The position numbers were made by a program, and so were the translations under genes. Positions 9,935-23,298 of a DNA stretch of 28,589 nucleotides are shown piece after piece; position 1 is the first letter of the stretch, and each line of letters begins with the position of its first letter. The DNA lies in the IMG/VR virus record IMGVR_UViG_3300050138_000569, positions 1 through 28,589 of that record, one strand, 5' to 3'. Under the pieces are notes generated by a model. That model ran no database searches, was not told where the DNA came from, and saw only the letters and a program-made list of their open reading frames with translations. The DNA is from a virus.

Positions 9935-10100
9935 TTTGGCACCTCCTTCATAAGGTGGTAACAGGGTTTGGATATTTGTTTGGACCAAATATGCGCCCTA
10001 GTTTCCCGGGGTTGTCCCGAGTTGCTATAGGCTAAAGATAGCTATTTATAGGGCTTTTTTAAACCCGGGTAAACTAAAAAATACCGTAACGCCCCCCTTT
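9935..10100. promoter_or_regulatory. Integrase upstream region with inverted repeats, next to the attachment site
   Basis: No gene is present. TAGTTTCCCGGG (9999-10010) faces CCCGGGTAAACTA (10064-10076), an inverted repeat with one extra base. GCGCCCTAG at 9993-10001 is the complement of CTAGGGCGC at 10128-10136 inside the tRNA fragment. These fit recombinase or excisionase binding sites and a leftward integrase promoter, but none is proven. Confidence 0.35.
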
Positions 10101-10140
10101 CACGGCGGTAACAGGGGTTCGAATCCCCTAGGGCGCGCCA
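10101..10140 (+). other. tRNA 3' fragment (probably tRNA-Arg): attachment-site remnant of element 1
   Basis: A T-arm is intact: AGGGG (10113-10117), loop TTCGAAT, CCCCT (10125-10129). It is followed by the 3' acceptor strand AGGGCGC (10130-10136), discriminator G and encoded CCA (10138-10140). There is no D-arm, anticodon arm or 5' acceptor strand GCGCCCT in place, so this is only the 3' end. The acceptor/discriminator matches tRNA-Arg of the UCU type as in E. coli argU. Integrases that use tRNA 3' ends leave exactly this kind of fragment at the far end of the element. Confidence 0.6.
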
Positions 10141-10287
10141 TTTTGGCGCTGGCGGTTCCGATATGGCTGCCATGCGCAGATGTGCCGCATTTCACGCGAT
10201 TTTTAATGTAGAAATTATGGGCCGGACGATTCCTTGCGGGTACATTGGTGTTGCCCTGCAAGCAGCTCTCCTCGGGAGCGTCAGGCC

Positions 10288-10434
10288 ATGATCAAAAGCA
10301 AAAATGTGGTGGCGGAGCTGCGGCGCGACGTGCACTACGTCATGAATGCCGTGATCGCCGTGGTGTTCATCGGCTTTGCCAGCCTCGCGGTGGCGGCGGC
10401 CCTGCTCGACTTTTTGTCGATCCGACACCACTGA
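10288..10434 (+). CDS. Small single-pass membrane protein, 48 aa
   Basis: The ATG at 10288 has GGGAG 9 bases upstream, which favours it over an in-frame ATG at 10234. The protein begins MIKSKNVVAELRRDVHYV and then has one strong membrane helix (AVIAVVFIGFASLAVAAALL) before a short FLSIRHH tail. The basic N-terminus suggests it stays in the cytoplasm. It converges on epmB with about 20 bp between stops and lies in the short chromosomal island between the two elements. No function is recognised. Confidence 0.5.
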   Translation: MIKSKNVVAELRRDVHYVMNAVIAVVFIGFASLAVAAALLDFLSIRHH

Positions 10435-10454
10435 GCCGCTACGCGCCGGTCGCG

Positions 10455-11507
10455 TTAACCCGCCGGCGGATAATGATGCCGGCGCCCGTTGAAATCCTCG
10501 ACGACGAAATGCGCCGCGCCGTTTGAACCGGTGCACGCGAGATAGTCCGGGCCGATTGGCGATTTGCCGTAGCCGCCGGGAATGTCGAGCACGTAAGTCG
10601 GCTGGCATAACCCCGACAATCGCCCGCGCAAGGCACGCATCAGGTCCTGCCCGGTCGCGATGTCGGTACGCAAAGGCGCGGTTCCGGGCGCCAGATCGCC
10701 GTGATGCAGGTAGTACGGCTTGATCCGGCATTCGACCAGCGCGCGCATCAGATCGCCCATCACCTGCGGCGTGTCGTTCACGCCGGCCAGCAGAACCGAT
10801 TGCCCGAGCAGAACCAGCCCTGCGTCCGCCATGCGCGCACAGGCCGCGCGCGCCGCGGCGGTCAATTCGCGCGGATGGTTGATGTGCAGCGCCACGTAAG
10901 TCGGCTTTCCCTTGACCTTGATCGCCCGCACCAGTTCCGCCGTCAGGCGCGCCGGCTCCGCGACCGGGACGCGGGTGTGAATGCGCAATACCTTGACGTG
11001 CTCGATTGTCCCGAGGCGCTTCATCACCTCGCGCAGGCGGCGCGCCGACAACACCAGTGGATCGCCGCCGGTGAGGATCACTTCCCAGATTTCCGGCCGG
11101 CTGCGGATGTAGTCGAGCGCAGCGCTAAGCGCCGCCGCCGACAACGCGTTCGCCTTGCCGGGCCCGACCGTCTCGCGTCGGAAGCAGAACCGGCAATAGA
11201 CCGCGCAGATCGGCGTGAGCTTGAGCAGCACGCGGTCGGGATAGCGGTGCACGATGCCTTCGACCGGGCTGTGCGCGTCATCGCCGATCGGGTCGCTGAG
11301 CTCTTGCGGCCGATGATCGAGCTCCGCCGCATCGGGAACGAACTGGCGCGCGATCGGATCGTGTGGATCGTTCGGATCGATCAAGTCGGCCAAAGCCGGC
11401 GGCAGTGCCACCGCGTAGCGCGCGGCGACTGCCTCCAGTGCGGGCAGTTGCTCGTTCGGCGCAAATCCGTGATCGCAGATTTGTTGTGCGGTTCTGAACG
11501 TAGGCAT
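10455..11507 (-). CDS. epmB: EF-P beta-lysylation protein EpmB (lysine 2,3-aminomutase family)
   Basis: The 350-residue radical-SAM, PLP-dependent enzyme converts L-alpha-lysine to beta-lysine, which EpmA attaches to a conserved lysine of elongation factor P to relieve ribosome stalling at proline runs. The iron-sulfur motif CxxxCxxC is C101-C105-C108 in ICAVYCRFCFRRETVG. ILTGGDPL and LRIHTRVPV are standard KamA/EpmB segments, and the PLP lysine is expected in PGGYGKSP near the C-terminus. Length and order are normal. The 3' end of an old epmA copy lies 25 bp upstream (11533-11561), showing that epmB was once directly downstream of epmA. Element 2 now separates them by 15.9 kb, so its promoter is uncertain. 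Confidence 0.93.
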   Translation of the reverse strand: MPTFRTAQQICDHGFAPNEQLPALEAVAARYAVALPPALADLIDPNDPHDPIARQFVPDAAELDHRPQELSDPIGDDAHSPVEGIVHRYPDRVLLKLTPICAVYCRFCFRRETVGPGKANALSAAALSAALDYIRSRPEIWEVILTGGDPLVLSARRLREVMKRLGTIEHVKVLRIHTRVPVAEPARLTAELVRAIKVKGKPTYVALHINHPRELTAAARAACARMADAGLVLLGQSVLLAGVNDTPQVMGDLMRALVECRIKPYYLHHGDLAPGTAPLRTDIATGQDLMRALRGRLSGLCQPTYVLDIPGGYGKSPIGPDYLACTGSNGAAHFVVEDFNGRRHHYPPAG

Positions 11508-11532
11508 CGCTATTCCCTGTATGTGTTGTTGT

Positions 11533-11561
11533 TCACGGCTCGACCACCGGCGTCCATATCA
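11533..11561 (-). pseudogene. epmA: Stranded original 3' end of epmA
   Basis: Read on the minus strand, these bases encode I-W-T-P-V-V-E-P-stop, in frame with the end of EpmA at 27437 (I-W-T-P-V-V-E-T-stop). They are the pre-insertion end of epmA, cut off by element 2, with 25 bp to the epmB start. This remnant proves the ancestral gene order epmA-epmB. Confidence 0.85.
11546..11561. repeat. attachment-site core, left copy (att for element 2)
   Basis: accggcgtccatatca is identical to 27450-27465 and flanked on both sides by mismatched bases. It is the integrase crossover core within the epmA 3' end. Confidence 0.85.
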
Positions 11562-11583
11562 GTTTCCTAGCCGTTTCGTCGCT

Positions 11584-11718
11584 TTGCATGCCATTGCATA
11601 TCGTTTGGTCGCCGTCAAAAAACCCCTGTCTTGCTTGCATTACCCGTTGCAAGGAGTATCATCGCGTTGCGTCTGGCAACACTGTATTGCACGAAGTTTG
11701 TTGCCAGCGTGTTGCCAG
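11584..11718. repeat. Probable integrase arm sites, left end
   Basis: TTGCAT occurs at 11584, 11594 and 11635. GTTGCCAG occurs at 11700 and 11711, with its complement TGGCAAC at 11674. The same two motifs recur at the opposite end of the element, which is how tyrosine-integrase arm sites are arranged. The region also separates the divergent integrase and epmB and must contain whatever promoter each uses. Confidence 0.55.
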
Positions 11719-11737
11719 AATGGGGGGTATCGAGCAC

Positions 11738-13141
11738 ATGACGAAACGAAACTTGACCGACCGAACGTTGAAGGCATTGAAGGCCGCGGCACCCGGCAAG
11801 CTAATCGACACATGGGATTCAACCGTGGCCGGCTTCGGAGTCCGCGTGTCCGACAGCAGGCGCCGGACGTTTGTGCTGATGGCACGCTACGGGGGCAGCC
11901 GCCACCCGACAAGGCGGGCGATCGGGGTCTATGGCGAGATCACGCTCGCCGACGCGCGCGCCAAGGCCGTGCGTTGGAAAGAGCAGATCGCCGCCGGTAT
12001 CGACCCGGCCGAGGCCGAGGAAGCAATCCGCCGGGCGGCGCTGCGGCGACGGGCAAATACGTTCGGCGCCGCGGTCGAGGATTATCTTCGCCTGCATGTG
12101 ATCGGCCCCAACCCCGCCAAGCTCAAGCAACGCAACGGCCGCGAAGTCAGGCGTCTACTATTGCGCACTTTCATGCCGATCTGGGGCGATCTTCCGATCA
12201 CGGCGATCACCCGCGACCAAGTGCGCGACGTCATCGAGGACGTGCGCGATTACGGCACCGCCGCGATGCTGGCGAAGCGCGGCGCGAAGGAAAAGCACCA
12301 CAACGGTGCCGCGAAGCCGACCCCCGGCCAGGCGCGCAACCTGTTTGCCTACCTGCGCGCGTTCTTTTCCTGGACGATCGAGCGCGGCGACTTCGGGCTC
12401 GAGCTGTCGCCCTGCGACCGTCTGCGGGCGACGCGCATACTTGGCGCCCAACGCTCGAGCGACCGCACGTTGACCGACCTCGAACTGTTCGCGTTCTGGC
12501 GCGCCGCTCTGCGCACGCCCTACCCCTATGGCGCGGTCCACCGAATGCTCGTGTTGACCGGCCTGCGCTTGAACGAGGTTGCCGACGCCTCATGGGGTGA
12601 ATTCGATTTAAAGGAAAAGCTCTGGACGATCCCGGCGCGCAGAATGAAGGGCACCGACGACGCGGCACGACCGCACGCTGTTCCGTTGACCTCCGATATG
12701 CTGGCGATCATCGAGGAGTTGCCGCGCTTCAAGGGCGGCGATTTTCTGTTCTCCGTCACCGGCGGCACGAGTCCTGTCTGGATGAACGACAAAGTCAAGA
12801 AGCGGCTCGACGTCAAAATGCTACGCTGCTTGCGGGCGCTGGCGCGCATGCGCGGCGAGGATCCTGCCAAGGTGAAGCTTGCGCCGTGGGTCAACCATGA
12901 CTTGAGACGCACGCTCCGCTCGGGGCTGTCGCGACTGCGGATCGATCACGACGTAAAGGAAGCCGTGCTCGCCCACGTCAAGCCGGGCATCGTCGATCGT
13001 TATGACCGATACGATTTAGCCGTTGAGAAGCGCGAGGCATTGGAAAAGTGGGGCGCGCGTCTGCGCGATATCGTGCAGCCGACGCCCGAGAATGTTGTGT
13101 CGTTTGCCTCGCGTGACCCTTCTTCGGCGGTGGGGCGGTGA
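11738..13141 (+). CDS. int: Tyrosine integrase of element 2 (P4-type with DUF4102 arm domain)
   Basis: The ATG at 11738 (MTKRNLTDRTLKAL) gives 467 residues and the normal N-terminus of P4-like integrases; an in-frame ATG at 11720 is possible and a frame open from 11588 is not needed. Residues 1-90 are the arm-binding domain (TVAGFGVRVSDSRRRTFVL, ADARAKA). The catalytic domain carries R277 (LTGLRLNEV), K304 (RRMKG), H387-x-x-R390 (NHDLRRT), H413 (LAHVKPG) and nucleophile Y422 (VDRYDRYD). It lies 177 bp inside the left attachment core, as expected for the enzyme that inserted this element into epmA. All key residues are intact. Confidence 0.93.
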   Translation: MTKRNLTDRTLKALKAAAPGKLIDTWDSTVAGFGVRVSDSRRRTFVLMARYGGSRHPTRRAIGVYGEITLADARAKAVRWKEQIAAGIDPAEAEEAIRRAALRRRANTFGAAVEDYLRLHVIGPNPAKLKQRNGREVRRLLLRTFMPIWGDLPITAITRDQVRDVIEDVRDYGTAAMLAKRGAKEKHHNGAAKPTPGQARNLFAYLRAFFSWTIERGDFGLELSPCDRLRATRILGAQRSSDRTLTDLELFAFWRAALRTPYPYGAVHRMLVLTGLRLNEVADASWGEFDLKEKLWTIPARRMKGTDDAARPHAVPLTSDMLAIIEELPRFKGGDFLFSVTGGTSPVWMNDKVKKRLDVKMLRCLRALARMRGEDPAKVKLAPWVNHDLRRTLRSGLSRLRIDHDVKEAVLAHVKPGIVDRYDRYDLAVEKREALEKWGARLRDIVQPTPENVVSFASRDPSSAVGR

Positions 13142-13145
13142 CGTC

Positions 13146-13751
13146 ATGCTGTCGGCCACGTCCTTCACGGATGATCTCGAGCGGTACCAAATCGCTGATC
13201 CTCGGTGCCAGCAGATCATCGACAGTTGGCGGGAATTCGCTGGCACCAACGAAATGTGGCGCAAAATCCAAAAGGTCGCTGCTCGCCATTGTCGGCCACC
13301 ATTAGACGCTAAAGAATTTATCGACTTCGTTCTCTCCGCAACGTGGTCAGTCGATCGGATCGTTGAGCACGACAAGCAGGTCAAATCCGAGTGGGAAAAA
13401 TTGAAGCGGGAAATGAAAACAGCGATAGACGACGCCGATTGGCCGTCTGATCTATCTTGGCTTCTCCCGACATTTGATAAGCGCATTTTGGAGCTCCACC
13501 GGAGCAGCTACGATTCCAATTCACCGCCGGTTAGTCGACAGAATGTACGCGGGTCGCGGGATCAAAAAGCGTTTATAGGACGTGTCGGCAAGTACCTCAA
13601 AACGCACTGCGGCGAATGGTGCGAGGGAGAGGTCACCGACCTGATCGAAATCGTCTTTGAGAAAGATTCCAACAGGGATCAAGTGCGCCTGGCCCGGAGG
13701 CCAAGCACGCGAGCGGGCCGGAAGGCCAAGCATCGGAAAGATAAGCCCTAA
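13146..13751 (+). CDS. Hypothetical protein, 201 aa
   Basis: This gene starts 4 bases after the integrase stop (ATG at 13146, MLSATSFTDDLERYQIAD), so the two are probably co-transcribed. The protein is soluble and mostly helical with several tryptophans (IDSWREF, EMWRKIQKVA, DWPSDLSWLLPTF). It ends in a strongly basic tail (RRPSTRAGRKAKHRKDKP) suited to nucleic-acid contact. No signal peptide, membrane helix or enzyme motif is seen, and no family is recognised. Its codon use is more AT-rich than the integrase. A modulator of recombination or unrelated cargo are both possible. Confidence 0.65.
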   Translation: MLSATSFTDDLERYQIADPRCQQIIDSWREFAGTNEMWRKIQKVAARHCRPPLDAKEFIDFVLSATWSVDRIVEHDKQVKSEWEKLKREMKTAIDDADWPSDLSWLLPTFDKRILELHRSSYDSNSPPVSRQNVRGSRDQKAFIGRVGKYLKTHCGEWCEGEVTDLIEIVFEKDSNRDQVRLARRPSTRAGRKAKHRKDKP

Positions 13752-13826
13752 ACTGCGGGTGCACTCGATCGCGATTTTGCGCCCTGGGTGCGCCCGCCAA
13801 TCCATTACAATTAATCGTATTCCGAA

Positions 13827-13848
13827 GCATCGATACTCGATTCGATGC
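13827..13848. promoter_or_regulatory. Operator-like inverted repeat before the AlpA gene
   Basis: GCATCGA (13827-13833) and TCGATGC (13842-13848) are perfect complements separated by 8 bases, just upstream of the RBS GAGGAAA of the AlpA-like gene. It may be an autoregulatory site. Confidence 0.35.
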
Positions 13849-13858
13849 GAGGAAACCT

Positions 13859-14080
13859 ATGGCGAGATTTTTGGATAGCAGGCGGTTGGCCGAAAAGTTG
13901 GAGGCCGCGCTTGGCCACAAGCCCAACCCATCAACAATTTGGCGGCAAGAGAAGCTCAATCGTTTTCCGAAGCGTCTTCGCCTGTTCCCCAATTCGCGCT
14001 CGCTATGGGTCGAAGACGAAATCGATGCGTGGCTTGCTCAAAAGATAGTCGAGCGCGACGCGACCGTTAAGGCAGCCTAG
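13859..14080 (+). CDS. AlpA-family HTH regulator / excisionase, 73 aa
   Basis: This small DNA-binding protein has the excisionase/AlpA plan: MARFLDSRRLAEKLEAALG, then a recognition segment (PSTIWRQEKLNRFPKRLRLF), a wing (SRSLWVEDEIDAWLAQKI) and a short tail. The 'VEDEIDAWL' motif after the wing is typical. A good RBS (GAGGAA) precedes the ATG. AlpA proteins activate or direct excision of the neighbouring integrase's element, and the distance of about 0.7 kb from int fits. An inverted repeat upstream and a terminator downstream make it a stand-alone unit. Confidence 0.75.
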   Translation: MARFLDSRRLAEKLEAALGHKPNPSTIWRQEKLNRFPKRLRLFPNSRSLWVEDEIDAWLAQKIVERDATVKAA

Positions 14081-14084
14081 GAAA

Positions 14085-14114
14085 ACGAAACGGCGGCCGG
14101 GTTAGGGCCGCCGT
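14085..14114. terminator. Bidirectional hairpin terminator after the AlpA gene
   Basis: ACGGCGGCC (14090-14098) pairs perfectly with GGCCGCCGT (14106-14114) around a 7-base loop. On the minus strand it is followed by TTTCGTTTTCC, a good terminator tail. On the plus strand the tail (ctggatttct) is weaker. It insulates the AlpA unit from the operon starting at 14203. Confidence 0.6.
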
Positions 14115-14202
14115 CTGGATTTCTACGGGCAACAATCAATCGCTGGCAAGCGATGCTGATTTAAGCCCGCCGCGAATCAAAAGCAAGCGCGACGAGGCTC
14201 AC

Positions 14203-14451
14203 ATGAACGACCAGACCCAAATCAGCCCACGATCGCGGGACCAACGCACATCGCGGGCTGCGCCAATTACGCCCTGGCGCCGGCGGCACCGCGAGAAAAT
14301 GCGGCTCCGGGCCAAGCGCCTGCAATGGCCCTTTAAGCTTGCTGAGCGCGAGGCAAATAAACTTCGGATGAGGGTCGTGAGAGCCCGCCGGAAAGGCGCC
14401 GGCGATCAGATTGCCGCGCGCCAGCCCGCAACACACCAGCTTCCACAATGA
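14203..14451 (+). CDS. Small basic protein, 82 aa; first gene of the coupled replication operon
   Basis: The ATG at 14203 has GAGG 6 bases upstream. The product is strongly basic (PWRRRHREKMRLRAKRL, VVRARRKGAG) with an Arg/Lys-rich helical centre, likely to bind DNA or RNA. It has no recognisable family. Its stop overlaps the next start as ATGA, which begins a chain of genes joined this way up to 17772. Confidence 0.55.
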   Translation: MNDQTQISPRSRDQRTSRAAPITPWRRRHREKMRLRAKRLQWPFKLAEREANKLRMRVVRARRKGAGDQIAARQPATHQLPQ

Positions 14452-14621
14452 GGGATCGATACAAAAATACGGGCGATCGGCAGCGGATCCAGCGCGGCCG
14501 CAGCTTGTGGCGGTCGCCCCGTTTGAGAAAAGACGAGTTGCGCACAATGGCGGCGGAAGCATTTCGGAACACCGCGATCATCAAGGTTCAGCGGGTACAG
14601 CCGAGCAAGGCTAAGCGATGA
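14448..14621 (+). CDS. Very small basic protein, 57 aa
   Basis: A 57-residue frame starts in the ATGA overlap with the gene before and ends in an ATGA overlap with the gene after. The sequence starts MRDRYKNTGDRQRIQRGRS and is highly basic, with one hydrophobic patch (TMAAEAFRNTAIIKV). No family is seen. Support comes from the consistent overlap chain rather than from homology. Confidence 0.45.
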   Translation: MRDRYKNTGDRQRIQRGRSLWRSPRLRKDELRTMAAEAFRNTAIIKVQRVQPSKAKR

Positions 14622-14773
14622 TTGACACCCGCGAGCCACGTCCAATCTTCCTGATCCGTTTGCGTGCGGAAAAGGGCGTCGATGCCCTGCGCGCTTTACG
14701 GGCAGCATTGAAGGTGTTGGGCCGACGCTTCGGCCTGCGCGCGGTTGAGGTGCGCGAGGAATCGAATGAATAG
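14618..14773 (+). CDS. Very small protein, 51 aa
   Basis: This starts in the ATGA overlap at 14618 (MIDTREPRPIFLIRLRAEKG) and ends 8 bases into the next gene. The pattern, a beta strand (PIFLIRL) followed by a helix (GVDALRALRAALKVLGRRFG) and a short strand (LRAVEV), is like small phage proteins found beside primase or resolvase genes in alphaproteobacteria. No firm family can be given. Confidence 0.5.
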   Translation: MIDTREPRPIFLIRLRAEKGVDALRALRAALKVLGRRFGLRAVEVREESNE

Positions 14774-14975
14774 CCCCGCCCCCGCCGTCGATCCGCTCGA
14801 GGTTTTAAAGCTGCGCGCTTGGGCGCGCGCGAGGTTGTACGCCGAAAATCTGCTCGAGCTCGGCGAAGCGGTCGACGTTTTGCAAGACGCAGCAGAGCAA
14901 AGCGGCCTTGTCCGCGCGATAGGGGCCACCGGCGTGCAGGAAATTCTCGCGGCGGCCTTCGAGGAGGCACGATGA
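14766..14975 (+). CDS. Small helical protein, 69 aa
   Basis: The ATG at 14766 (MNSPAPAVDPLEVLKLRAWA) has GAGGAA just upstream and overlaps the previous stop. After a Pro-rich start, the rest is a helical hairpin (LRAWARARLYAENLLELGEA and VDVLQDAAEQSGLVRAIG). This fits a small adaptor or dimerising protein. No known family is recognised. It overlaps the next gene by 4 bases (ATGA). Confidence 0.55.
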   Translation: MNSPAPAVDPLEVLKLRAWARARLYAENLLELGEAVDVLQDAAEQSGLVRAIGATGVQEILAAAFEEAR

Positions 14976-15316
14976 CCGACGCCGCCAGCTCCACCATCAC
15001 CGCGCCGGACTTGCTCACCAAGGTGATCGACCAGGCGCGCGAGCGCATTGAAGCGATTCCACCGCCGGCGACGAAAAAGATCGTTCATATTTTTTGGGCC
15101 GCGGCTAAGCAGGCACGCGATCTCGGCGCCAGCAAAGTAGTTCACGACGCCTTCATGGCGTTGGCGATCGACGTCAACCTGATCGCCAAGAATGGCCGAT
15201 GGACCGGCACCGATGTGCGCGAGAGTATCCGCCGATATGGCGCGGAAAATATATCGCACGCGATCACCTGGGCGCTGCGCGGCTGGAACCCGTTTGAGAA
15301 AGGCCCGCTAAAATGA
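14972..15316 (+). CDS. Hypothetical protein, 114 aa, coupled to the RepA-like ATPase
   Basis: It begins in an ATGA overlap (MTDAASSTITAPDLLTKVID) and ends in one with the ATPase gene. The frame is open further upstream, but the overlap start is the sensible one. The C-terminal half (DVNLIAKNGRWTGTDVRESI, RRYGAENISHAITWALRGWNPF) resembles short DNA-binding or helicase-loader segments and has a repeated aromatic pattern. A helicase-associated role is inferred from its tight link to the ATPase; no family is identified. Confidence 0.6.
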   Translation: MTDAASSTITAPDLLTKVIDQARERIEAIPPPATKKIVHIFWAAAKQARDLGASKVVHDAFMALAIDVNLIAKNGRWTGTDVRESIRRYGAENISHAITWALRGWNPFEKGPLK

Positions 15317-16632
15317 AAACGGCCACCGAGCAATTCGCGGACGAATTCAATCGCGGAATAGATGAAGAGCTAGAGCGCATTGAGCCGAAGGCGAAGGTTC
15401 TCGAATTCAACGACGCGCCCGCGCAAACGAATGGGCACGAGGGCGGCGCCTGGGACAACGAGACACCACCGGCAACGAGCGCCGGCGGAAACGGGCTGGC
15501 GCCGGGCGATGGCACGGCTGAGCCGATCATGCTGGCAAAGAGTTTTACCCCGGTCGCAATCGATGACGTCACGCTCTCTGCTGAGCCAGCATGGGCGATT
15601 CATCGGCTGCTGCCAGCGCGAGGGCTCGCCTGCATTGTCGGCCCGCCAAAATCCGGCAAGTCATTCCTCGCGAGCGATGCCCTTTTCTCGATTGCGAGGA
15701 ATGTGCCCTACGCCGGCCGCGCCGTCCTGCAGGGCCCGGTGATCTACCTTACCGGCGAGGGCGTTTCGGGGTTTAAGCGCCGCATGATTGCGCTTCGCCG
15801 GCATCATGGCGTCGAGGGCCAGGGCGTTCCGTTTTTTATGATCGAGGAAGTTCCGGATCTTGGGTCTGAGACAACCGACGCGCACCAACTCATCGCGGTG
15901 CTTGACAGGTTCATTGCGGATCGAGGATTGCCGCCGCCCCGGGCTATCGCGCTCGACACGCTGGCCCGCTGCATGGGGAGCGGCGACGAAAATACAGCGA
16001 AGGACATGGGCCGCTTCGTCGACCGCTGCGGGATCATCGAGCGGCATTACCGCTGCCTAGTCGTTCCGATCCACCACATGGGCAAGGACCCGGGCAGGAA
16101 GGGCCGCGGCTCGAATTCCCTAAATGGCGGATCAGACGTTACCTGGGAAGTGGAAAAACTCGACGGCTACAGCCGCGTCAAAATCGAGGAAATGAAAGAC
16201 GGGCCGGAAGGCGCAACTTGGACTTTCCGGCTTTTGCCGGTCGAGATCGGGGATACAAGCGCAACTTTTGACGACGCGAAGGAAGGTGCCGAAACGATGA
16301 CTTGCGTGGTCGAAATCGTGTCCGAGCCGGCCCTGGCGCAACCAAGCGCAACTAAATCGAGGCGACCGCCGACCGGCGTGGCGGGCGACCTCTTGAAGAT
16401 CATCAAGCACGCGATCGAAGAAGCCGGACAGACCAACATAGACAGCGTGGCAGCACCCCGCGGCGCACGCGCTGTCAACCACGACCTGCTGAAAAACTAT
16501 TGCAGCACAATGGATTGGCAGCAAGATCGAAAGCCCAACGCATTCCGCGCCGTGCTCTCCAAAAGTCTAAGTCAACTACGCGCACGCGATACGATCGGCT
16601 TCGATCAGCGGTGGATATGGGTGACACCATGA
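15313..16632 (+). CDS. repA: RepA-like AAA/RecA-fold ATPase (replicative helicase-like)
   Basis: The 439-residue protein has an acidic, flexible N-terminus to about residue 75, then an AAA_25/RepA ATPase core: Walker A GPPKSGKS (110-117), a VIYLTGEGVSGFKRR segment (143-157), Walker B AIALDT (211-216), and the sensor VPIHHMGKDP (251-260) typical of plasmid RSF1010 RepA-like hexameric helicases. The C-terminus looks like a winged helix (LLKNYCSTMDWQQDRKPNAF, WIWVTP). It probably opens or unwinds the element's DNA at the iterons that begin inside its 3' half and continue past its stop. No primase domain is present, unlike the analogous protein of element 1. Confidence 0.85.
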   Translation: MKTATEQFADEFNRGIDEELERIEPKAKVLEFNDAPAQTNGHEGGAWDNETPPATSAGGNGLAPGDGTAEPIMLAKSFTPVAIDDVTLSAEPAWAIHRLLPARGLACIVGPPKSGKSFLASDALFSIARNVPYAGRAVLQGPVIYLTGEGVSGFKRRMIALRRHHGVEGQGVPFFMIEEVPDLGSETTDAHQLIAVLDRFIADRGLPPPRAIALDTLARCMGSGDENTAKDMGRFVDRCGIIERHYRCLVVPIHHMGKDPGRKGRGSNSLNGGSDVTWEVEKLDGYSRVKIEEMKDGPEGATWTFRLLPVEIGDTSATFDDAKEGAETMTCVVEIVSEPALAQPSATKSRRPPTGVAGDLLKIIKHAIEEAGQTNIDSVAAPRGARAVNHDLLKNYCSTMDWQQDRKPNAFRAVLSKSLSQLRARDTIGFDQRWIWVTP

Positions 16633-17033
16633 CAACCGCAACTGCGCAACTAAAGCGCAACTTGGCGCAACTATTCCCGGTTGGCACTGCCTTAAACCCA
16701 AGCGCAACTAGCGCAACTGAGTTGCTAAAGAGAGAGTTGCAAAGTTGCTCTCTCCCTCGCGCCTCGGCTCAGCACTCCGCGCCTACCATCGCTCGCTCTC
16801 GGCTTCGCCTTCGCTCGCTCTGCGGCGCATCACCACCACGGTGCACCAGCATGACCACCAGCACCCTCGCCCGCACGTCAGCCAAAGCCCATCAACCGGA
16901 ACACCCTGAAGGCCATTTAAAGCCGCACAGCACAAAGCCGGATGCAGAAACAAAACGAGGCGCAAAAGGGCGGGGAATAGGTATTCGATGCTCACGCACG
17001 CGCCAAAACATTCTGAAAAGAGGCCGACGATGA
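16629..17033 (+). CDS. Low-complexity ORF overlying the iteron array, 134 aa (doubtful protein)
   Basis: The ATG overlaps the ATPase stop (ATGA) and the stop overlaps the next start, so the frame fits the coupled chain. The protein itself is unconvincing: MTTATAQLKRNLAQLFPVG reflects the DNA repeats read in shifting frames, followed by Ser/Arg/His-rich low complexity. An internal ATG at 16851 (MTTSTLARTS) might begin a shorter product. The open frame may persist mainly so that ribosomes reach the following gene, with the DNA serving as origin. Function unknown. Confidence 0.35.
   Translation: MTTATAQLKRNLAQLFPVGTALNPSATSATELLKRELQSCSLPRASAQHSAPTIARSRLRLRSLCGASPPRCTSMTTSTLARTSAKAHQPEHPEGHLKPHSTKPDAETKRGAKGRGIGIRCSRTRQNILKRGRR
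16636..16754. repeat. Iteron array, consensus GCGCAACT: probable replication origin of element 2
   Basis: GCGCAACT or a one-base variant occurs at 16636 (CCGCAACT), 16644, 16655, 16665, 16702 and 16711. The inverted core AGTTGC follows at 16720, 16735 and 16743. The motif also occurs in the ATPase gene at 16211, 16259, 16336 (variant) and 16346. GCAACT-g-AGTTGC at 16713-16725 is a perfect palindrome, and GAGAGAG (16730-16736) pairs with CTCTCTC (16748-16754). Spacings near 9-11 bp match one helical turn. An origin role is inferred. Confidence 0.65.
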
Positions 17034-17509
17034 ATAAGCCCACGCGCCAGGCGCTCGCTGTGCACGGTCGATCCGCGCCGCACCGCGTCACCGGCAAGCT
17101 GCGAACCGCGATCGAGCGGATGATCTGGCAAGGCGATAAGCGCGCTGATGCAGCCGTGGCCGCCGGCATGACCGATCATGGATTGCGCTCGGCGCTGCGA
17201 AAATCGCATGTAAAGGCGGCCTATCTCGCCGAGCTCGATTTGCTGCGGACCAGCGAGCGGGCCCGCAATGTGCACGCCCTGGTCGACGTTAGGGACGCCA
17301 GCGACAACGCGATGGCGCGGGTTGCCGCAGCGAAGGAGCTCGAGCGCAGCGCCGAACAGCAGCCACCCTTCGCGGGCAGCGGTGTGCGCCCAGGCCTTCT
17401 GATCGTCGTTGTTGATCCGCAGGGCCGAGCATTGCCGACGCAGCCAGTGCAGCCCGCGCCGCGCGTGATCGAGCTCACGGCGAACAGCGAAGACGATGCC
17501 GCGGAATGA
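17030..17509 (+). CDS. Terminase-small-subunit-like HTH protein, 159 aa
   Basis: The ATG at 17030 has GAGG 8 bases upstream and overlaps the previous stop. Residues 25-110 have the layout of TerS-like HTH proteins: TGKLRTAIERMIWQGDKRAD, then AAVAAGMTDHGLRSALRKSH (the DNA-binding helix pair, equivalent to the 'AAxxAGxSxxxxxxxLxxxxV' motif), then a long oligomerising helix (LDLLRTSERARNVHALVDVR and NAMARVAAAKELERSAEQQ). The C-terminus is Pro/hydrophobic (GLLIVVVDPQGRALP). If it is a TerS, it would let a helper phage's packaging motor accept element DNA, since no TerL is present here. A plain transcription factor cannot be excluded. Confidence 0.6.
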   Translation: MNKPTRQALAVHGRSAPHRVTGKLRTAIERMIWQGDKRADAAVAAGMTDHGLRSALRKSHVKAAYLAELDLLRTSERARNVHALVDVRDASDNAMARVAAAKELERSAEQQPPFAGSGVRPGLLIVVVDPQGRALPTQPVQPAPRVIELTANSEDDAAE

Positions 17510-17772
17510 GCAACTATCTTCCCCCGACGACCGCAGCACCGCGCAGCCGCGGGCTCGACGGCGAGGACGACGATGCACAATCCAACGACAAACTAGCAGT
17601 CAATCAGTTGGCCGAGCGAACAGAAACGCATGCAGACAAGGGCTTTGTGGCCTGCTGGCCCACCCAACGCTCAAATCTGGCAACGGCTTGGCAACAGCGG
17701 TGCGCGTTCGGCGCTTCGATCGATACGCGGACAGGCGCCGAACCTTGCGCGCGCGTGCCTTTACTTCGGTGA
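17506..17772 (+). CDS. Small hypothetical protein, 88 aa
   Basis: Last member of the overlap chain: it starts in the ATGA at 17506 (MSNYLPPTTAAPRSRGLDGE). The composition is acidic and polar at first (DGEDDDAQSNDKLAVNQLAE), then less regular (ACWPTQRSNLATAWQQRCAF). No family or motif is recognised. Competing open frames cover the same bases (17496-17888 and 17630-17866) and codon bias is not decisive, so the protein is uncertain. From 17773 to 17954 I see no gene. Confidence 0.35.
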   Translation: MSNYLPPTTAAPRSRGLDGEDDDAQSNDKLAVNQLAERTETHADKGFVACWPTQRSNLATAWQQRCAFGASIDTRTGAEPCARVPLLR

Positions 17773-17954
17773 GAGTCAGAGGGAGCGCACGCCAGCGCGG
17801 CACACGGCGCGACCAGCGCCTCGCAGGAGGGCCCCGGCACCCTCGCGAGCTCAGAAAGTCCATTAGCGACGACCGGGGGCAAAACTGAGTGTTCGCCCGC
17901 GCCGCTCGATTTGCTCATCCATCCTCGCCATTAGAACACCCGGAGGCTGAAAAT

Positions 17955-18224
17955 ATGGTGACACCGAAAATCTCAGGACTGGAAAAGCCGGAAGGCATCA
18001 CGTTTGAAACGTGGGCCGATTTTGGCGCGGTGGTGTCGACGACGGCGAGTGGCGATCAACCGCGCTTTGCGTTTCTCATCACGTCGCTGGCCGGGCGTGG
18101 CGTTGCGTGGGTTGAGAGTGGCGCGGACGTGCTGGCGCTCGCTGCCGAGTTGGAGCACGCGGCCGGCGCCTTGCGGCAGCACGGCACGGACATGGGGCCG
18201 GACGCGGCCGGCAAGCCGAATTGA
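17955..18224 (+). CDS. Hypothetical protein, 89 aa
   Basis: The ATG at 17955 has a strong GGAGG 9 bases upstream; a longer frame from 17889 has no such site. It is a compact soluble protein: MVTPKISGLEKPEGITFETW, a beta-rich centre (QPRFAFLITSLAGRGVAWV) and a helix (GADVLALAAELEHAAGALRQ). It ends DAAGKPN, like the unrelated-looking gene at 24703 (GAPAEKPN), and the DNA around both stops is similar. No family is recognised. Confidence 0.6.
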   Translation: MVTPKISGLEKPEGITFETWADFGAVVSTTASGDQPRFAFLITSLAGRGVAWVESGADVLALAAELEHAAGALRQHGTDMGPDAAGKPN

Positions 18225-18255
18225 TCGCGCGCGGCTGGGCTTTCCCGCAGATTAC

Positions 18256-18275
18256 GCGCGCCCCCGAGGGCGCGC
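18256..18275. terminator. Perfect GC hairpin between genes
   Basis: GCGCGCCC (18256-18263) pairs with GGGCGCGC (18268-18275) around a CCGA loop. There is no U-run, so it may be a pause or mRNA-stabilising hairpin rather than a terminator. It lies 31 bp after the 89-aa gene. Confidence 0.35.
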
Positions 18276-18350
18276 CTGTGTCCCGAGGCGGTGCGTTGTA
18301 AGAAAATTTGAGGCGTGCCATCGAGCAGACGACCGATTGGAGGCGCGACG

Positions 18351-18665
18351 ATGATTGAGCGGATCGATACCGCGAATTGGGGCAATGCGAAGCCCGGCAG
18401 CACGCTGGCGACGGTCGATGACTATGCGGCGGTTGTCGCGGCGCTGCGCGCGCGCAAGCGGGCGCTGAGCCTGAGCAGCGCCGAGATCGCGGCGCGGTGC
18501 GGCTTGGGCGAAAGCTACGTCAGGAAAATACTGACCGGCTCGAAAATTCTCGGGCCATTGACGCTTCCGCTGATGCTGGCGGTGCTCGGCCTGCGCATCG
18601 CGGTCCTCGCCGCCGAGACGCCGCGGCCGGGTGTTCCGAAACGAAATCACAGCGAGGCGGCATGA
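18351..18665 (+). CDS. XRE-like HTH regulator, 104 aa
   Basis: GGAGG lies 7 bases before the ATG at 18351 (MIERIDTANWGNAKPG). Residues 25-70 form a Cro/C1-type HTH: VVAALRARKRALSLSSAEIA, ARCGLGESYVRKILTGSK, with 'SSAEIAARCGL' as the first helix-turn and 'ESYVRKILTG' as the recognition helix. It continues LGPLTLPLMLAVLGLRIAVL. This tail matches that of the protein at 20270 (KILAPNRSKNVGPKTFGPLL, LLGIKLIAV), so the two are probably distant paralogues. It likely represses or times element genes. Confidence 0.72.
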   Translation: MIERIDTANWGNAKPGSTLATVDDYAAVVAALRARKRALSLSSAEIAARCGLGESYVRKILTGSKILGPLTLPLMLAVLGLRIAVLAAETPRPGVPKRNHSEAA

Positions 18666-18862
18666 GGATCACGGTCGAAATCACCGCGCCGAAGCGGGAA
18701 AAGGCGACGGGCGAGCGAGAGGCGCAAGCCCGCATTGCCGAATTTTCCGCGGCCTTGCGGCTCGTGTCCGACCGGCTCGCAAATACAGGCGCCCAAAATG
18801 GCGAGCAAGGATTTGAGTTCGGCGAGCTCAAGGGAAGCTACAAATTTATAGAGGGAGAATGA
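18662..18862 (+). CDS. Small hypothetical protein, 66 aa
   Basis: It starts in the ATGA overlap with the regulator gene (MRITVEITAPKREKATGERE). A beta strand (RITVEITA) is followed by a charged helix (AQARIAEFSAALRLVSDRLA) and an acidic C-terminus (EFGELKGSYKFIEGE). No family is recognised. It is co-translated with the XRE-like gene and the next gene begins 4 bases after its stop. Confidence 0.55.
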   Translation: MRITVEITAPKREKATGEREAQARIAEFSAALRLVSDRLANTGAQNGEQGFEFGELKGSYKFIEGE

Positions 18863-18865
18863 GCC

Positions 18866-19066
18866 ATGGCTGCGCCAACGTTTTCGGTAACAAGCGCGCT
18901 TCCCGTCAGTGAGACGCGCGCGATCGAAGTCGCGTGGATCGCCCGCTACCTAGATCTCGTCGCGCATGACGTTCGCTCGGCCGGTGGCACAAAAAGTAGT
19001 GGAACAATCACAGCCGCGGGGCTGACTCTCGGGACGTGGAGTTACACGGCTGGGGCCGCGTCTTAG
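18866..19066 (+). CDS. Small phage-structural-like protein, 66 aa
   Basis: GGGAG lies upstream of the ATG (MAAPTFSVTSALPVSETRAI). Short Ser/Thr/Gly-rich strands (SSGTITAAGLTLGTWSYTAG) surround one central helix (VAWIARYLDLVAHDV), a composition often seen in small phage decoration or head proteins. This is a compositional judgement, not a family match. It precedes the scaffold-like gene, as small head proteins often do. Confidence 0.5.
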   Translation: MAAPTFSVTSALPVSETRAIEVAWIARYLDLVAHDVRSAGGTKSSGTITAAGLTLGTWSYTAGAAS

Positions 19067-19120
19067 CGCGTAATCGATGTAGGTACGCACGATGCGCGGA
19101 GATTTGAAGGGCATGAAAAA

Positions 19121-20011
19121 ATGACGGACATTCCAGCGCCAGGCGCACAGTCACCACCGGCCGGTGGCCAGCAGCAATCCGGCGCGGCACCTGCGGGCAA
19201 CAGTCAGCCCCTCGAGCAACTCGACCGGCAGGCTCAGCACCAGCAGCAGCAACGGCCGCCCGAAAATCCGAATACGCGCGGCCACTCGCCGGCGCGCGAC
19301 GCTAGGGAAGCGGCCGCCGTTCGACAGCCGGGCGATCAGCAGCAGAGCGACCAGCAGCAGCAACAGCAGCCCACCGGCTCTGATGAGGTGCAGATCGGCG
19401 ACGTCAAGATCAGCCCCGACAAATTCAAAGAAATTATGCAGCGTCAGGGCGCGGAAGATGCGCGGAAGCTGACGCTGCCGACCAGCGCCGAAGGCTATGA
19501 ATTGAAAGTGCCAGCGGATTTCAAACCGCCCGGCGACGTCAAATTTGAATTCAACAAAGACGATCCGGTGCTCGCGAACGCCCGAAAATTGGCGCTCGCA
19601 CGCGGAATGGATCAGGGCACGTTTTCGGATTTTCTCGGCGTCTACGCAGCCGAGCGGATTTCGGAGGCCACCAAAATCAACACCGCGCGCAATGCCGAGA
19701 TTGCGAAGCTCGGAACTATGGCGCCGCAGCGCATTGATGCGGTGAAAACCTGGGCGCACGGCACACTCGGCAGCGAGCTCGGCGGCGCGATCGAGCAAAT
19801 GCTTGTCACATCGAAGCACGTCGAGGCGTTCGAAAAGATCATCAATCAATTCAGCCGCCAAGGCGGCACGCAATTCAGCCAAGCCCACCGTGAAGGCGAG
19901 CCACCGGCGGGCAAAATCCCCGGCTACGAGAATATGAGCTTTGAACAAAAGCGCGCCGCGCAAATGAGAATGAATCCGCCAGCGCAGCGGACAACTCGCG
20001 ACATCCGGTAA
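19121..20011 (+). CDS. Phage scaffold / capsid-assembly-like protein, 296 aa
   Basis: The first 90 residues are disordered and Gln-rich (QQQSGAAPAGNS, QHQQQQRPPE, QQQSDQQQQQQP). The middle has the pattern common in scaffold or capsid-assembly proteins of tailed phages: GYELKVPADF, then NKDDPVLANARKLALARGMD, GTFSDFLGVYAAERI, where 'YELK...DPxxxxARxLAxxxGxxxxxFxxxLxxYA' is a recurrent motif. A helical region and a basic C-terminus (RMNPPAQRTTRDIR) follow, as is usual for scaffolds that contact coat protein. No coat or portal gene lies nearby, which makes a stand-alone scaffold notable: satellites such as P4 carry an external scaffold to resize helper capsids. The family call is moderate. Confidence 0.55.
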   Translation: MTDIPAPGAQSPPAGGQQQSGAAPAGNSQPLEQLDRQAQHQQQQRPPENPNTRGHSPARDAREAAAVRQPGDQQQSDQQQQQQPTGSDEVQIGDVKISPDKFKEIMQRQGAEDARKLTLPTSAEGYELKVPADFKPPGDVKFEFNKDDPVLANARKLALARGMDQGTFSDFLGVYAAERISEATKINTARNAEIAKLGTMAPQRIDAVKTWAHGTLGSELGGAIEQMLVTSKHVEAFEKIINQFSRQGGTQFSQAHREGEPPAGKIPGYENMSFEQKRAAQMRMNPPAQRTTRDIR

Positions 20012-20021
20012 TTGACCCGTG

Positions 20022-20267
20022 ATGCTCAAACCCTCGCCGCCGGAAATGTTGATCTGTTGCCATTGTGAAAGGCGGCCGGCTGCGCGAGGCGCGATCGGTG
20101 TGCCGCTTTGTCTCAAGTGCAGAACTGAATCTTTCGAGCGAACCGCGGCGGCCGAACCGAGGCCGGTGACGGTCTTATCCAACGCCACCGGGCTCGATCT
20201 CTTGATCCGGAAAGGCCAGGTGCTCATTGCATCCGGATCGCCGGGGCTTCCCTTGGAGGCAGCCTAA
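20022..20267 (+). CDS. Small zinc-ribbon protein, 81 aa
   Basis: The ATG at 20022 (MLKPSPPEMLICCHCERRPA) or GTG at 20019 could start it; the RBS is weak. Two cysteine pairs, CCHC and, after about 18 residues, CLKC, form a probable zinc ribbon (C-x2-C...C-x2-C). The C-terminal half (LLIRKGQVLIASGSPGLPLE) is beta-like. Small zinc ribbons in phage-like elements often bind nucleic acid or regulate transcription. It lies 2 bases before the next gene. Confidence 0.55.
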   Translation: MLKPSPPEMLICCHCERRPAARGAIGVPLCLKCRTESFERTAAAEPRPVTVLSNATGLDLLIRKGQVLIASGSPGLPLEAA

Positions 20268-20269
20268 TC

Positions 20270-20761
20270 ATGCTCGACCAGCGCGCATTCGCCATCATCG
20301 CCGATTACGATGGTTTTATAGCCGCGATCGTGGCGCGCATGACGGCAATCGGCATCACCCACGAAGGCTTAGAGGCCCTTGGATTTGCAAAGGGTCACGT
20401 TGGCAAAATACTAGCTCCGAATCGATCAAAAAACGTGGGACCAAAAACATTCGGCCCACTGCTCCAACTTCTCGGAATTAAGTTGATCGCGGTCGAAGAT
20501 GAAAAAATGACCGCACAGATGCGACCTCACTGGCAGAAACGCGAAAAATCTTTACCACTTCTTGCGAACGTAAGAACGCCGCCGCGCGCGACGTGGCTGT
20601 TTTCGTCAAGATCGGGCCGGAAGGCGGCGAAAGCGCGCGCGGAAAAGTTGTCGGCCAGCGAACGCCACGCAATCGCTTTGAACGCGATCACCATACGTTG
20701 GCAGCGTGAGCGTGAGAAGGAGCAGCACCGATGCAAGGCCGTTGCAAGAGCGCCCGGTTAA
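20270..20761 (+). CDS. XRE-like regulator paralogue, 163 aa
   Basis: GGAGG sits about 10 bases before the ATG (MLDQRAFAIIADYDGFIAAI). Residues 18-75 look like an HTH (VARMTAIGITHEGLEALGFA, KGHVGKILAPN) followed by VGPKTFGPLLQLLGIKLIAV, a segment recurrent in rhizobial island proteins and like that of the gene at 18351. The C-terminal half is strongly basic (RSGRKAAKARAEKLSASERH) and may be a second DNA-contacting region. Regulation of element genes is inferred. A short ORF at 24571-24663 ends with a similar tail (EKESRR...ARAPG). Confidence 0.6.
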   Translation: MLDQRAFAIIADYDGFIAAIVARMTAIGITHEGLEALGFAKGHVGKILAPNRSKNVGPKTFGPLLQLLGIKLIAVEDEKMTAQMRPHWQKREKSLPLLANVRTPPRATWLFSSRSGRKAAKARAEKLSASERHAIALNAITIRWQREREKEQHRCKAVARAPG

Positions 20762-20947
20762 TCATTGCTGCAGGTAGGCCCTATGCAGCGCACTCAATAA
20801 AGTCGATGGTCGAAGCTGAAAGCCCCGCCGTCTGCTGTCGCGGCGTTGCTCTGTTGATGTCTATCAAGCGACCTTTTGTTCCATATCAATACGCTTAGTA
20901 ATTTAATTGAGGTGACACAATTACTTAACGGTTTAGGGAAGAGTGTT

Positions 20948-21682
20948 ATGCGTAGTGTGCGGTCAATCAAATTTCGCGTTGTTGTTTGGTACAGCAAAGC
21001 CATCCAAAATTTTAAGACGCGACGATTTTCGTTCGCCATTGCTCTGATTACTGGCTTGTTTCCCTATATGGCAAACAGCGCCAACGCGGCCACGTTTAAT
21101 CTTTTGCCGGGCAATACAGTCGAGCTCGAGATAACAGGCGACTTTTCAACGCCAGGGTCAATTACGATAACCGAATCCATGCAGCCCACTATCGTCGAGC
21201 TACTCTCTACCCCGGGTATTACTAGTTTTTCCGGATTCATAGACTACACAGAGGTTTCTCAATCCGGAAGTGTCAATACCGGTTTCTTCATTCCGCAAGC
21301 TTGCGCCGCCCCCGGAGATTGCGGCCTACTCGGTGGCGTCTTCGAATGCATTTGCGGAATAGACTTTCCAGAAGGCTATATCGTTGCCAGAGATGGATAC
21401 CCAGTCACTATTTCTGTCACAGATACGTCGCGGTACTTTCAGTTCGTCGATTATTTTTCGACAGTCGGCCTTGTGACGAGTGTTGGTATTCTCCCATTCG
21501 ATTTGAAGCTGACGGTGGATGCCTCTGATGGCCTCGGCATCAATTTTATTTCCGGGGCGGCCCCCCTCTTTATTTCCGGGGCGACCCCCCTCCCCGCCGC
21601 TCTCCCACTCTTCGCCTCTGGCCTCGGCGCGTTGGGCCTGCTTGGATGGCGCAGGAGACGAAACAGCACATCGGTAAAATGA
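20948..21682 (+). CDS. VPLPA-CTERM (PEP-CTERM-like) sorted exported protein, 244 aa
   Basis: The ATG at 20948 (MRSVRSIKFRVVVW) has GGGAAGAG upstream. Residues 28-48 form a signal peptide (FSFAIALITGLFPYMANSAN...A). The mature part is beta-rich with a Cys cluster (ACAAPGDCGLLGG, ECICGIDFPEG) that suggests disulphides. The C-terminus is a PEP-CTERM-type sorting tag of the VPLPA class: TPLPAALPLF, a glycine-rich helix (ASGLGALGLLG), then WRRRR. Such tags direct proteins to an exosortase and the cell surface or matrix. A 24-bp tandem repeat lies just before the tag. The gene is AT-richer than its neighbours and is probably cargo. Its exosortase partner is not in this window. Confidence 0.82.
   Translation: MRSVRSIKFRVVVWYSKAIQNFKTRRFSFAIALITGLFPYMANSANAATFNLLPGNTVELEITGDFSTPGSITITESMQPTIVELLSTPGITSFSGFIDYTEVSQSGSVNTGFFIPQACAAPGDCGLLGGVFECICGIDFPEGYIVARDGYPVTISVTDTSRYFQFVDYFSTVGLVTSVGILPFDLKLTVDASDGLGINFISGAAPLFISGATPLPAALPLFASGLGALGLLGWRRRRNSTSVK
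21545..21592 (+). repeat. 24-bp tandem duplication before the sorting tag
   Basis: Two adjacent 24-base units (21545-21568 and 21569-21592) differ at one base. They encode FISGAAPL-FISGATPL, the spacer directly before PAALPLF. The repeat keeps the reading frame and lengthens the linker by 8 residues. Confidence 0.8.
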
Positions 21683-21951
21683 GCGCTCACTGGCTCAACA
21701 TAATCGGCCTTGCGCTCGGGATGTTGGGAGTCCTGATAATTTTCAAATGGGGTCCACCTCAGCCAAGTTTCGAGACAAGACGCAGTGCTTTATTATTGCA
21801 CTCGACTGCGGAGGATGGCCTAAAAAATAATGAGATCGAACAACAGAAGCGACGATATCAAAACCGATCCAGGTTCGGCCTTTTTCTGATTTTTTGTGGC
21901 TTCGGTTTGCAACTTTACGCGGAATGGGTCGGGCACTCCAGCCCGTACTAA
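21679..21951 (+). CDS. Small two-helix membrane protein, 90 aa
   Basis: It starts in the ATGA overlap with the VPLPA-CTERM gene (MSAHWLNIIGLALGMLGVLI). One membrane helix lies at residues 5-24 (before FKWGPPQPSFE), then a charged loop (EDGLKNNEIEQQKRRYQNRS), then a second helix (FGLFLIFCGFGLQLYAEWV). The HWLNIIGLALGMLG...FKWGPPQP N-terminus recurs in small hypothetical proteins of rhizobia. It may be a membrane partner for export of the upstream product, but that is inference from co-translation. Confidence 0.65.
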   Translation: MSAHWLNIIGLALGMLGVLIIFKWGPPQPSFETRRSALLLHSTAEDGLKNNEIEQQKRRYQNRSRFGLFLIFCGFGLQLYAEWVGHSSPY

Positions 21952-22269
21952 GGGCTCGCACTTTGACGCGGGCTCGGCTGGCGCAGGAAGCGGAAGGCTG
22001 CTGCTGTAGCCGCCTGATCAAAACACCTGATCTGATTTTGGAGAGACCGCTGTTCCCGACACGCCGAACTCCGCGCTAACGATCTAGAATTCGAATGATG
22101 CGCCGCGCGCTCCCGATTTGCGGGAGATGCTGACATGGAAGCGCCAGTTGCAGCCGTCGCATCAATTGCCAGTAATTCGCGATGAAGCGGGAGTGCCAGT
22201 GCCAAAACGCTTGACACCTCTGGGTATGACAAAACAATATGCGCGCATTGGTTGAGGCCGGAGGGCCTG
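21952..22269. other. Gap without a convincing gene
   Basis: In these 318 bases I see no good RBS/start. An open plus-strand stretch from 22088 to 22255 reads NSNDAPRAPDLREMLTWKRQ... and ends ...MTKQYARIG-stop, with a protein-like composition but no ATG near its start. It may be the tail of a decayed gene. Minus-strand frames here look random. Confidence 0.4.
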
Positions 22270-23298
22270 ATGCTTCGTAATGCGTTTTCATGGGTTCCGG
22301 CCTGGGCACGGCTATTGCTTGAATTTGGTGCCGGGATCGGCGCGTGGCTCGCCGGTTTTGAAGCGGTAAAGTATTGGCTGGAGGGTGTGAATAGCCGAGC
22401 GATTGCCGCTCAAATTTACGTCGTGCTCACCGCCGCTCTTCTACTCGCGTTGCTTGCTTATCGTGAACTGGTGACCAGCCGAAAGGAAAAATACGCAAAC
22501 ATCACAAGGTACACAAACCGTATTGCGGAGTTGGTAAAGGAGATTCATACTTACATCGAAGAACACAAACCGGCCGACACAGCCAGCGTGAGCGAGTTCG
22601 AATCGTTTTTTGAGATTTGTAAAACGAAATTTGCGCACGTTCTTGATCAATTGAATTTAATTTTCGTTTCATTGACTGGAACGAGTTGTCGTACGTCGAT
22701 CAAGTTGATTTATCATATCGAGAACGAAGCTTATTATTATACGCTTGTTCGAGACGAGGGCTCATCCTCGACTTGCGTCGAGATGGATAATCGTCGCGTT
22801 GAGCAAAATCACGACCCGCTGATAAAGAACCCACCATTTTTGAAGTTGTTCGACAACACGAACAGCACTTGGCACTACTTTTCGAATAATCTCCTGAAAG
22901 ATGGGAGTTTTGAGTCCACGAGTTTCAGAGCCTATAATCCAAGCTGGGGTGACCGGTTGCCCCAAAAGTCGAGCATTTTAAGGCCTTTTAAAGACTTTTG
23001 GCCGCTACCATATAGGAGTACGATCGCATGCGCGGTCCGGCATGGACCCGCACCATTTCTTACTGGTCAGAAATCGATCGTTTTGGGATTCGTGACGGTG
23101 GATAGCGAGTCGCGCCGCGTGTTCGAAAGTCGGTGGGATGTCCCGCTCGTGTTTTCTGTTGCCGACGGGCTTTATCACCCACTGAAAGCTTTTCTAGAGA
23201 TCCAGAATCGTGTGAAGATGGCGCCCGGATTGGGCCATAAACGGGTGTCAGGAACTACTCACGTTCCAAGTGCGTTAAGCCTACCTCCTCCAGGGTGA
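22270..23298 (+). CDS. Two-TM membrane protein with a possible GAF-like C-terminal domain, 342 aa
   Basis: The ATG at 22270 has GGAGGG 5 bases upstream, which favours it over a TTG at 22252. Residues 10-30 (WARLLLEFGAGIGAWLAGF) and 42-62 (AAQIYVVLTAALLLALLAY) are membrane helices. A charged helical stalk follows (RKEKYANITRYTNRIAELVK, IHTYIEEH). The soluble remainder has the ordering of a GAF-like sensor: SLTGTSCRTSIKLIYHIE, a long insertion, then STIACAVRHGP, SIVLGFVTVDSES and VFSVADGLYHPL. It is AT-rich and lies beside a tiny Pro-rich gene, as cargo. A signalling or phage-defence role is possible, but no known defence family is recognised. Confidence 0.7.
   Translation: MLRNAFSWVPAWARLLLEFGAGIGAWLAGFEAVKYWLEGVNSRAIAAQIYVVLTAALLLALLAYRELVTSRKEKYANITRYTNRIAELVKEIHTYIEEHKPADTASVSEFESFFEICKTKFAHVLDQLNLIFVSLTGTSCRTSIKLIYHIENEAYYYTLVRDEGSSSTCVEMDNRRVEQNHDPLIKNPPFLKLFDNTNSTWHYFSNNLLKDGSFESTSFRAYNPSWGDRLPQKSSILRPFKDFWPLPYRSTIACAVRHGPAPFLTGQKSIVLGFVTVDSESRRVFESRWDVPLVFSVADGLYHPLKAFLEIQNRVKMAPGLGHKRVSGTTHVPSALSLPPPG

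Follow-up and report, generated by a model that had tools for sequence, protein, structure and literature searches.

The window analysed here is a linear IMG/VR record of 28.6 kb (28,589 nt). The genes and repeats delimiting the element under study are as follows:

11546-11561, putative attL, exact 16-bp direct repeat ACCGGCGTCCATATCA
11588-13141, plus strand, tyrosine integrase (Pfam Phage_integrase and Arm-DNA-bind_3), first gene of the 15.9-kb element
15313-16632, plus strand, AAA_25 / RSF1010-RepA-like helicase gene, 439 aa (Pfam AAA_25, E 9.6e-31)
27437-28480, minus strand, lysyl-tRNA-synthetase-like (epmA-type) gene, named from its translation
27450-27465, putative attR, the same 16-mer ACCGGCGTCCATATCA, inside the 3' end of the epmA-type gene

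When one half of the window was compared with the other, the ACCGGCGTCCATATCA pair was the only exact direct repeat of at least 16 bp; it probably marks the ends of a 15.9-kb element, which appears to be inserted between epmA- and epmB-like genes. The repeat array described below is carried by a small mobile integrative element within a bacterial chromosome. Rfam and tRNA scans of the window gave no match.

The core of the helicase has a RecA fold and is related to RepA of RSF1010, which was the best match among solved structures both in a PDB profile search (E 1e-12) and in Foldseek (top entries 1nlf/1g8y); a preliminary description of this DNA had likewise named a RepA-like ATPase. In the AlphaFold2 model, the RecA-type core is followed by a linker of low confidence (residues 341-348) and a confidently predicted C-terminal winged helix, which was located as follows:

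16375-16623, plus strand, C-terminal winged-helix domain, residues about 355-437 (AlphaFold2, pLDDT about 80-97)
16534-16584, plus strand, predicted recognition helix, residues 408-424 (AlphaFold2), with covarying residues 409, 410, 412, 413, 416 and 417

For a related phage protein, a hexameric helicase with 5'-3' unwinding has been reported, and the same 2022 paper gives no described function for AAA_25 proteins (PMC8965321).

A word scan of the window found eight forward copies of GCGCAACT, starting at 16211, 16259, 16346, 16644, 16655, 16665, 16702 and 16711, and one further copy elsewhere on the opposite strand. The total of 9 compares with an expectation of 2.38 for the whole window and both strands and was reached in none of 100 shuffles. 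The 8-mer array near 16636-16718, the inverted cores extending to 16748 and the copies inside the ATPase gene, all noted in the preliminary description, were thereby confirmed, three of the in-gene copies being exact:

16211-16218, plus strand, in-gene copy of GCGCAACT, E-G-A-T frame
16259-16266, plus strand, in-gene copy of GCGCAACT, S-A-T frame
16336-16343, plus strand, in-gene near copy GCGCAACC, with GCGCAAC at 16336
16346-16353, plus strand, in-gene copy of GCGCAACT, S-A-T frame
16636-16672, plus strand, first downstream block, CCGCAACT at 16636, then GCGCAACT at 16644, 16655 and 16665
16702-16718, plus strand, second downstream block, GCGCAACT at 16702 and 16711, a 37-bp step from the first block
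16720-16748, minus strand, inverted AGTTGC cores at 16720, 16735 and 16743

The main array, with GCAACT as the core of its layout, begins directly 3' of the ATPase stop codon, and the start-to-start steps beyond the gene are 8, 11, 10, 37 and 9 bp. A spacing close to one helical turn, as proposed before, therefore applies within each block (8, 11, 10; 9) but not across the 37-bp step. Multiple short phased direct repeats near an initiator gene, a trait of iteron origins, are present at this array.

It had been argued that the repeat is conserved as DNA since the coding sequence reads it in different frames. This argument holds only in part: all three exact in-gene copies share one frame (offset 1 mod 3 from 15313; G/S-A-T). 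A-Q-L and R-N-L are readings of the ORF 16629-17033, and this ORF appears to be non-coding: GC at its three codon positions is 0.56/0.63/0.54, compared with 0.64/0.48/0.70 for the ATPase and 0.63/0.49/0.77 for the integrase, and it has no PHROGs match. The ORF was rejected as a coupled small protein, and the coupled small proteins suggested earlier as binders are supported neither as genes nor as binders. The conclusion itself is right for another reason. In some relatives the array follows the stop codon and so escapes translation, and in others it is read through as an unconserved C-terminal tail; therefore, the array is a DNA feature.

Relatives were sought with the ATPase and its alignments in IMG/VR, GTDB genomes, plasmids and phages. 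They were recruited via conserved core peptides, and all counts refer to the matches listed. The contig IMGVR_UViG_3300037156_000431 (L008) is 100% identical to the window over 13.3 kb (window positions 9313-22629, parts of both elements) and was, because of this identity, rejected as an independent relative. The nearest non-identical relative among the matches listed is a circular 35-kb plasmid of Methylobacterium currus, which encodes phage tail genes and also ParA, and whose ATPase is 42.7% identical. Its array of GCGCAACA has copies at +5, +14, +24, +71 and +80 from the stop codon and inverted copies at +101 and +109. The corresponding positions in the window are +5, +13, +24, +34, +71 and +80, with inverted copies at +103 and +111, so that 7 of 7 positions agree to within 1-2 bp, a match not seen in any of 200,000 random placements. 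The inverted cores at 16735 and 16743 are the counterpart of the inverted pair in relatives. With the M. currus ATPase as query against viral contigs, no match was obtained.

For the family-wide placement, the most over-represented clustered 7-mer of each locus was determined with no motif given in advance. In a first set, the top cluster adjoins the ATPase stop codon in 22 of 26 loci (2.9 expected; matches listed). The larger set comprised 87 non-redundant genes, less than 70% identical and with an alignable C-terminus, and hits between -300 and +500 relative to the end of the winged helix were counted; here, the top cluster lies at the winged-helix end in 78 genes (13.2 expected; matches listed). 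Both expected counts presume uniform placement along each locus. Homologues which keep the ATPase and lack the repeats had been named as the observation that would speak against iterons; this search was run, and repeats were present in M. currus and in the 78 of 87 listed genes. The words vary between elements (CGTTCCC, CGTTACC, CGTTGCC, CGTGACA, CGTCACA, CGGGACA, AGGAACA and others), while among consecutive same-strand copies in relatives distances of 9 bp (83 pairs) and 10 bp (51 pairs) dominate. Judged by these sequences, the layout is shared by dozens of distant relatives, each set of repeats having a word of its own. Copies of the word inside the gene are enriched as well (54 compared with 4.6 expected in 64 loci) and occur in 21 loci.

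Four circular plasmid records carry this gene together with phage-type genes, namely two of Methylobacterium and one each of Caenibius and Klebsiella. In all four, the top cluster lies directly after the helicase stop codon (for Caenibius, 24.8 of 38 kb were scanned). That the module is found on plasmid records does not by itself prove that the array is their origin. In six relatives (L012, L013, L022, L030, L040 and L133), direct and inverted pairs flank a short palindrome that is rich in GC and has AT at its centre, as in CCCTATAGGG. The single-strand folds of such palindromes reach z-scores of -3.9 to -6.7, unlike the window, in which the fold between direct and inverted copies is not significant (z -0.5).

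Covariation between the repeat word and the protein was analysed with a partial-Mantel test on 64 arrays, in which winged-helix columns were compared with the word while overall domain identity was controlled. The columns best correlated with the word correspond to window residues 417, 412, 410, 409, 401, 416, 419 and 406, followed at a lower value by 413 (partial r up to 0.42, compared with 0.01 for the median column). All top columns lie inside the predicted recognition helix except 401 and 406, the latter just before the helix. In pairs with under 35% identity in the rest of the domain, residues of the helix face are shared to 53% when the word is the same and to 16% when it differs, a contrast reached by none of 2000 permutations. 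At column 417, 98% of same-word pairs agree compared with 25% of different-word pairs. Across differing scaffolds, Q-[A/R]-F-x-R pairs with CGTGACA (L022, L136, L256, L277) and K-A-F-Q-R with CGGGACA (L218, L252, L254, L240, L245). These controls lessen the influence of shared ancestry, some of which remains in the correlations. Because the word covaries with the recognition helix even between distant proteins, the winged helix is the predicted reader of the repeat. That the ATPase binds the repeat with its own C-terminal winged helix can be proposed with high, though not full, confidence, and direct binding by the helicase is strongly implied, the covariation being strong indirect evidence for recognition of the repeats by their cognate initiator, as in iteron origins. 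The earlier proposal, in which a RepA-like ATPase is connected with iterons that bind protein, is thus supported by sequence comparison, and the winged helix of the ATPase itself can now be suggested as the likely binder, which is more precise than before.

These data are best accounted for if the repeats form an iteron-type replication origin of the 15.9-kb element, read by the C-terminal winged helix of its own helicase; we consider this reading very likely. The repeats would act as origin iterons of the integrative element. After excision, several subunits of the RepA-type hexameric helicase would dock via their winged helices on the phased copies, i.e., on a block with 8-11 bp steps, a second block beyond the 37-bp gap and the inverted pair. 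Docking would position and load the helicase, leading to DNA opening and the start of replication; the in-gene copies would be sites of the same type forming a secondary cluster. The sequences themselves establish the array, the conservation of its position and geometry, and the covariation of word and recognition helix; both helicase loading and origin activity are presumed from this arrangement. As a positive control, the same scan was applied to EcCICFT073, in which it places the top cluster (GGTAGAC-type) immediately after pri-rep (score 15.0 compared with 7.2 for the next cluster). Others have cloned the pri-rep-ori region of EcCICFT073 and tested whether it maintains a plasmid (PMC6092414). 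For SaPI Rep and SCCmec Cch2, the C-terminal domain binds repeats just downstream of the own gene (PMC7581432). Evidence for an origin from AT content, hairpins and GC skew is weak or mixed. An AT-rich unwinding region next to the iterons, another trait of iteron origins, was found neither in the window, where no pronounced AT-rich tract exists at the array (AT 0.40-0.53, mean 0.41), nor in M. currus, whose array has no clear AT-rich tract. The extremes of GC skew of the M. currus plasmid are not at the array, and other records are mixed.

The array might instead be an operator, with which the ATPase or another regulator controls the ATPase operon or downstream genes, and have no role as an origin. 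Repeated sites beside a gene are typical of autoregulation, copies exist inside the gene, and in most annotated relatives the next gene has the same direction as the ATPase. This function is nevertheless less likely, because the array is situated where the helicase gene ends (3') and not at a promoter. In Xanthobacter (L135), moreover, the gene on the far side of the array is annotated on the strand opposite to that of the ATPase, which places the array at the 3' ends of both. In addition, the word tracks the helicase's own helix, and the tested PICI origin has the same layout. Overall, an operator appears improbable.

A site for partition, incompatibility or packaging, at which the same winged helix serves for anchoring or copy-number control, is judged very improbable. 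An initiator can be titrated by several sites in phase, ParA is encoded on the M. currus plasmid and many carriers have phage genes; however, the array follows the helicase gene and neither ParA nor terminase genes, and it accompanies phage-like as well as satellite-like elements. The three in-gene copies in one frame (G/S-A-T) could raise the suspicion that the repetition is due to chance, to base composition or to a peptide repeated in the protein. The shuffles, the conserved placement with different words in the relatives listed and the excess of in-gene copies over 64 loci already refute this explanation, and the downstream ORF does not look coding either; its probability is negligible.

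The preferred reading, an iteron origin behind the helicase gene, has counterparts in known systems. In the rep-ori regions of SaPIs and PICIs, as in the window, an initiator helicase is followed directly by short iterons with element-specific words in two sets, and the reader is C-terminal (predicted here). The two iteron sets 3' of rep flank an AT-rich region in PICIs and SaPIs, whereas the two blocks of the window have none. Moreover, the helicases are unrelated: Pri-Rep of EcCICFT073 matches D5_N, DUF5906 and Pox_D5, while that of the window is a RecA-fold AAA_25 protein. Had the EcCICFT073 Rep been an AAA_25 member, the finding in the window would already be known; this assignment was rejected, as the protein is D5-type. 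The comparison suggests that the design of a helicase reading iterons behind its own gene also occurs with an unrelated helicase fold. SCCmec Cch2 likewise has direct repeats just downstream of its gene and a C-terminal reader (predicted in the window), but its helicase is D5/MCM-like, in contrast to the RecA fold found here, and there are only three iterons. Among solved structures, RepA of the IncQ plasmid RSF1010 is most closely related to the helicase core, and repeats at the origin (a predicted one in the window) are common to both. In RSF1010, the separate protein RepC melts the origin for loading of RepA (PMC8965321). RepC acts on 20-bp iterons of the IncQ oriV, whereas the repeats of the window have 7-8 bp and the winged helix is fused to the helicase. 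In pRN1, the putative origin also lies directly downstream of a helicase gene (ORF904) with a C-terminal winged helix, and has a palindrome; ORF904, however, is an SF3 helicase and the origin a long stem-loop without iterons (PMC4234260). SGI1 rep-oriV resembles the window in that iterons follow the initiator gene, rep, directly; SGI1 is an integrative island which replicates after excision (PMC7433901). It differs by its RepA_C-type initiator, by 17-bp iterons and by the presence of AT-rich regions and a DnaA box.

The open-access literature yielded no description of such an arrangement with a RecA-fold helicase. A wider proposal, which we hold to be evenly balanced between right and wrong, is that phages, phage-plasmids and integrative elements share a large, unrecognised family of replication modules. 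Each RecA-fold AAA_25 helicase gene would be followed directly by an origin of its own, and a readable residue-to-base code of the winged helix would allow the word to switch while the geometry remains fixed, giving rise to many mutually independent replicons. A widespread AAA_25 subgroup would thereby gain a predicted binding site and a role that is concrete and can be tested. Since word and helix covary, the sequence of a helicase could be used to predict its origin and to foresee which elements are incompatible.

The Rhizobium phages 16-3 (L136) and RHph_X2_25 (L137) have 15-16 copies of CGTGACA after an AAA_25 helicase gene, which in phage 16-3 encodes Prim-Pol plus AAA_25. This array is a candidate origin of the classical laboratory phage 16-3, for whose origin nothing was found in the open-access literature.

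A second element adjoins the 15.9-kb element in the window and has the same design:

5519-5742, parallel array of CAAAACG, 10 copies on both strands
5756-7747, minus strand, Prim-Pol plus AAA_25 gene, with the CAAAACG array directly 3'

Several of the CAAAACG copies form inverted pairs, and this array is the strongest 7-mer cluster in the whole window.
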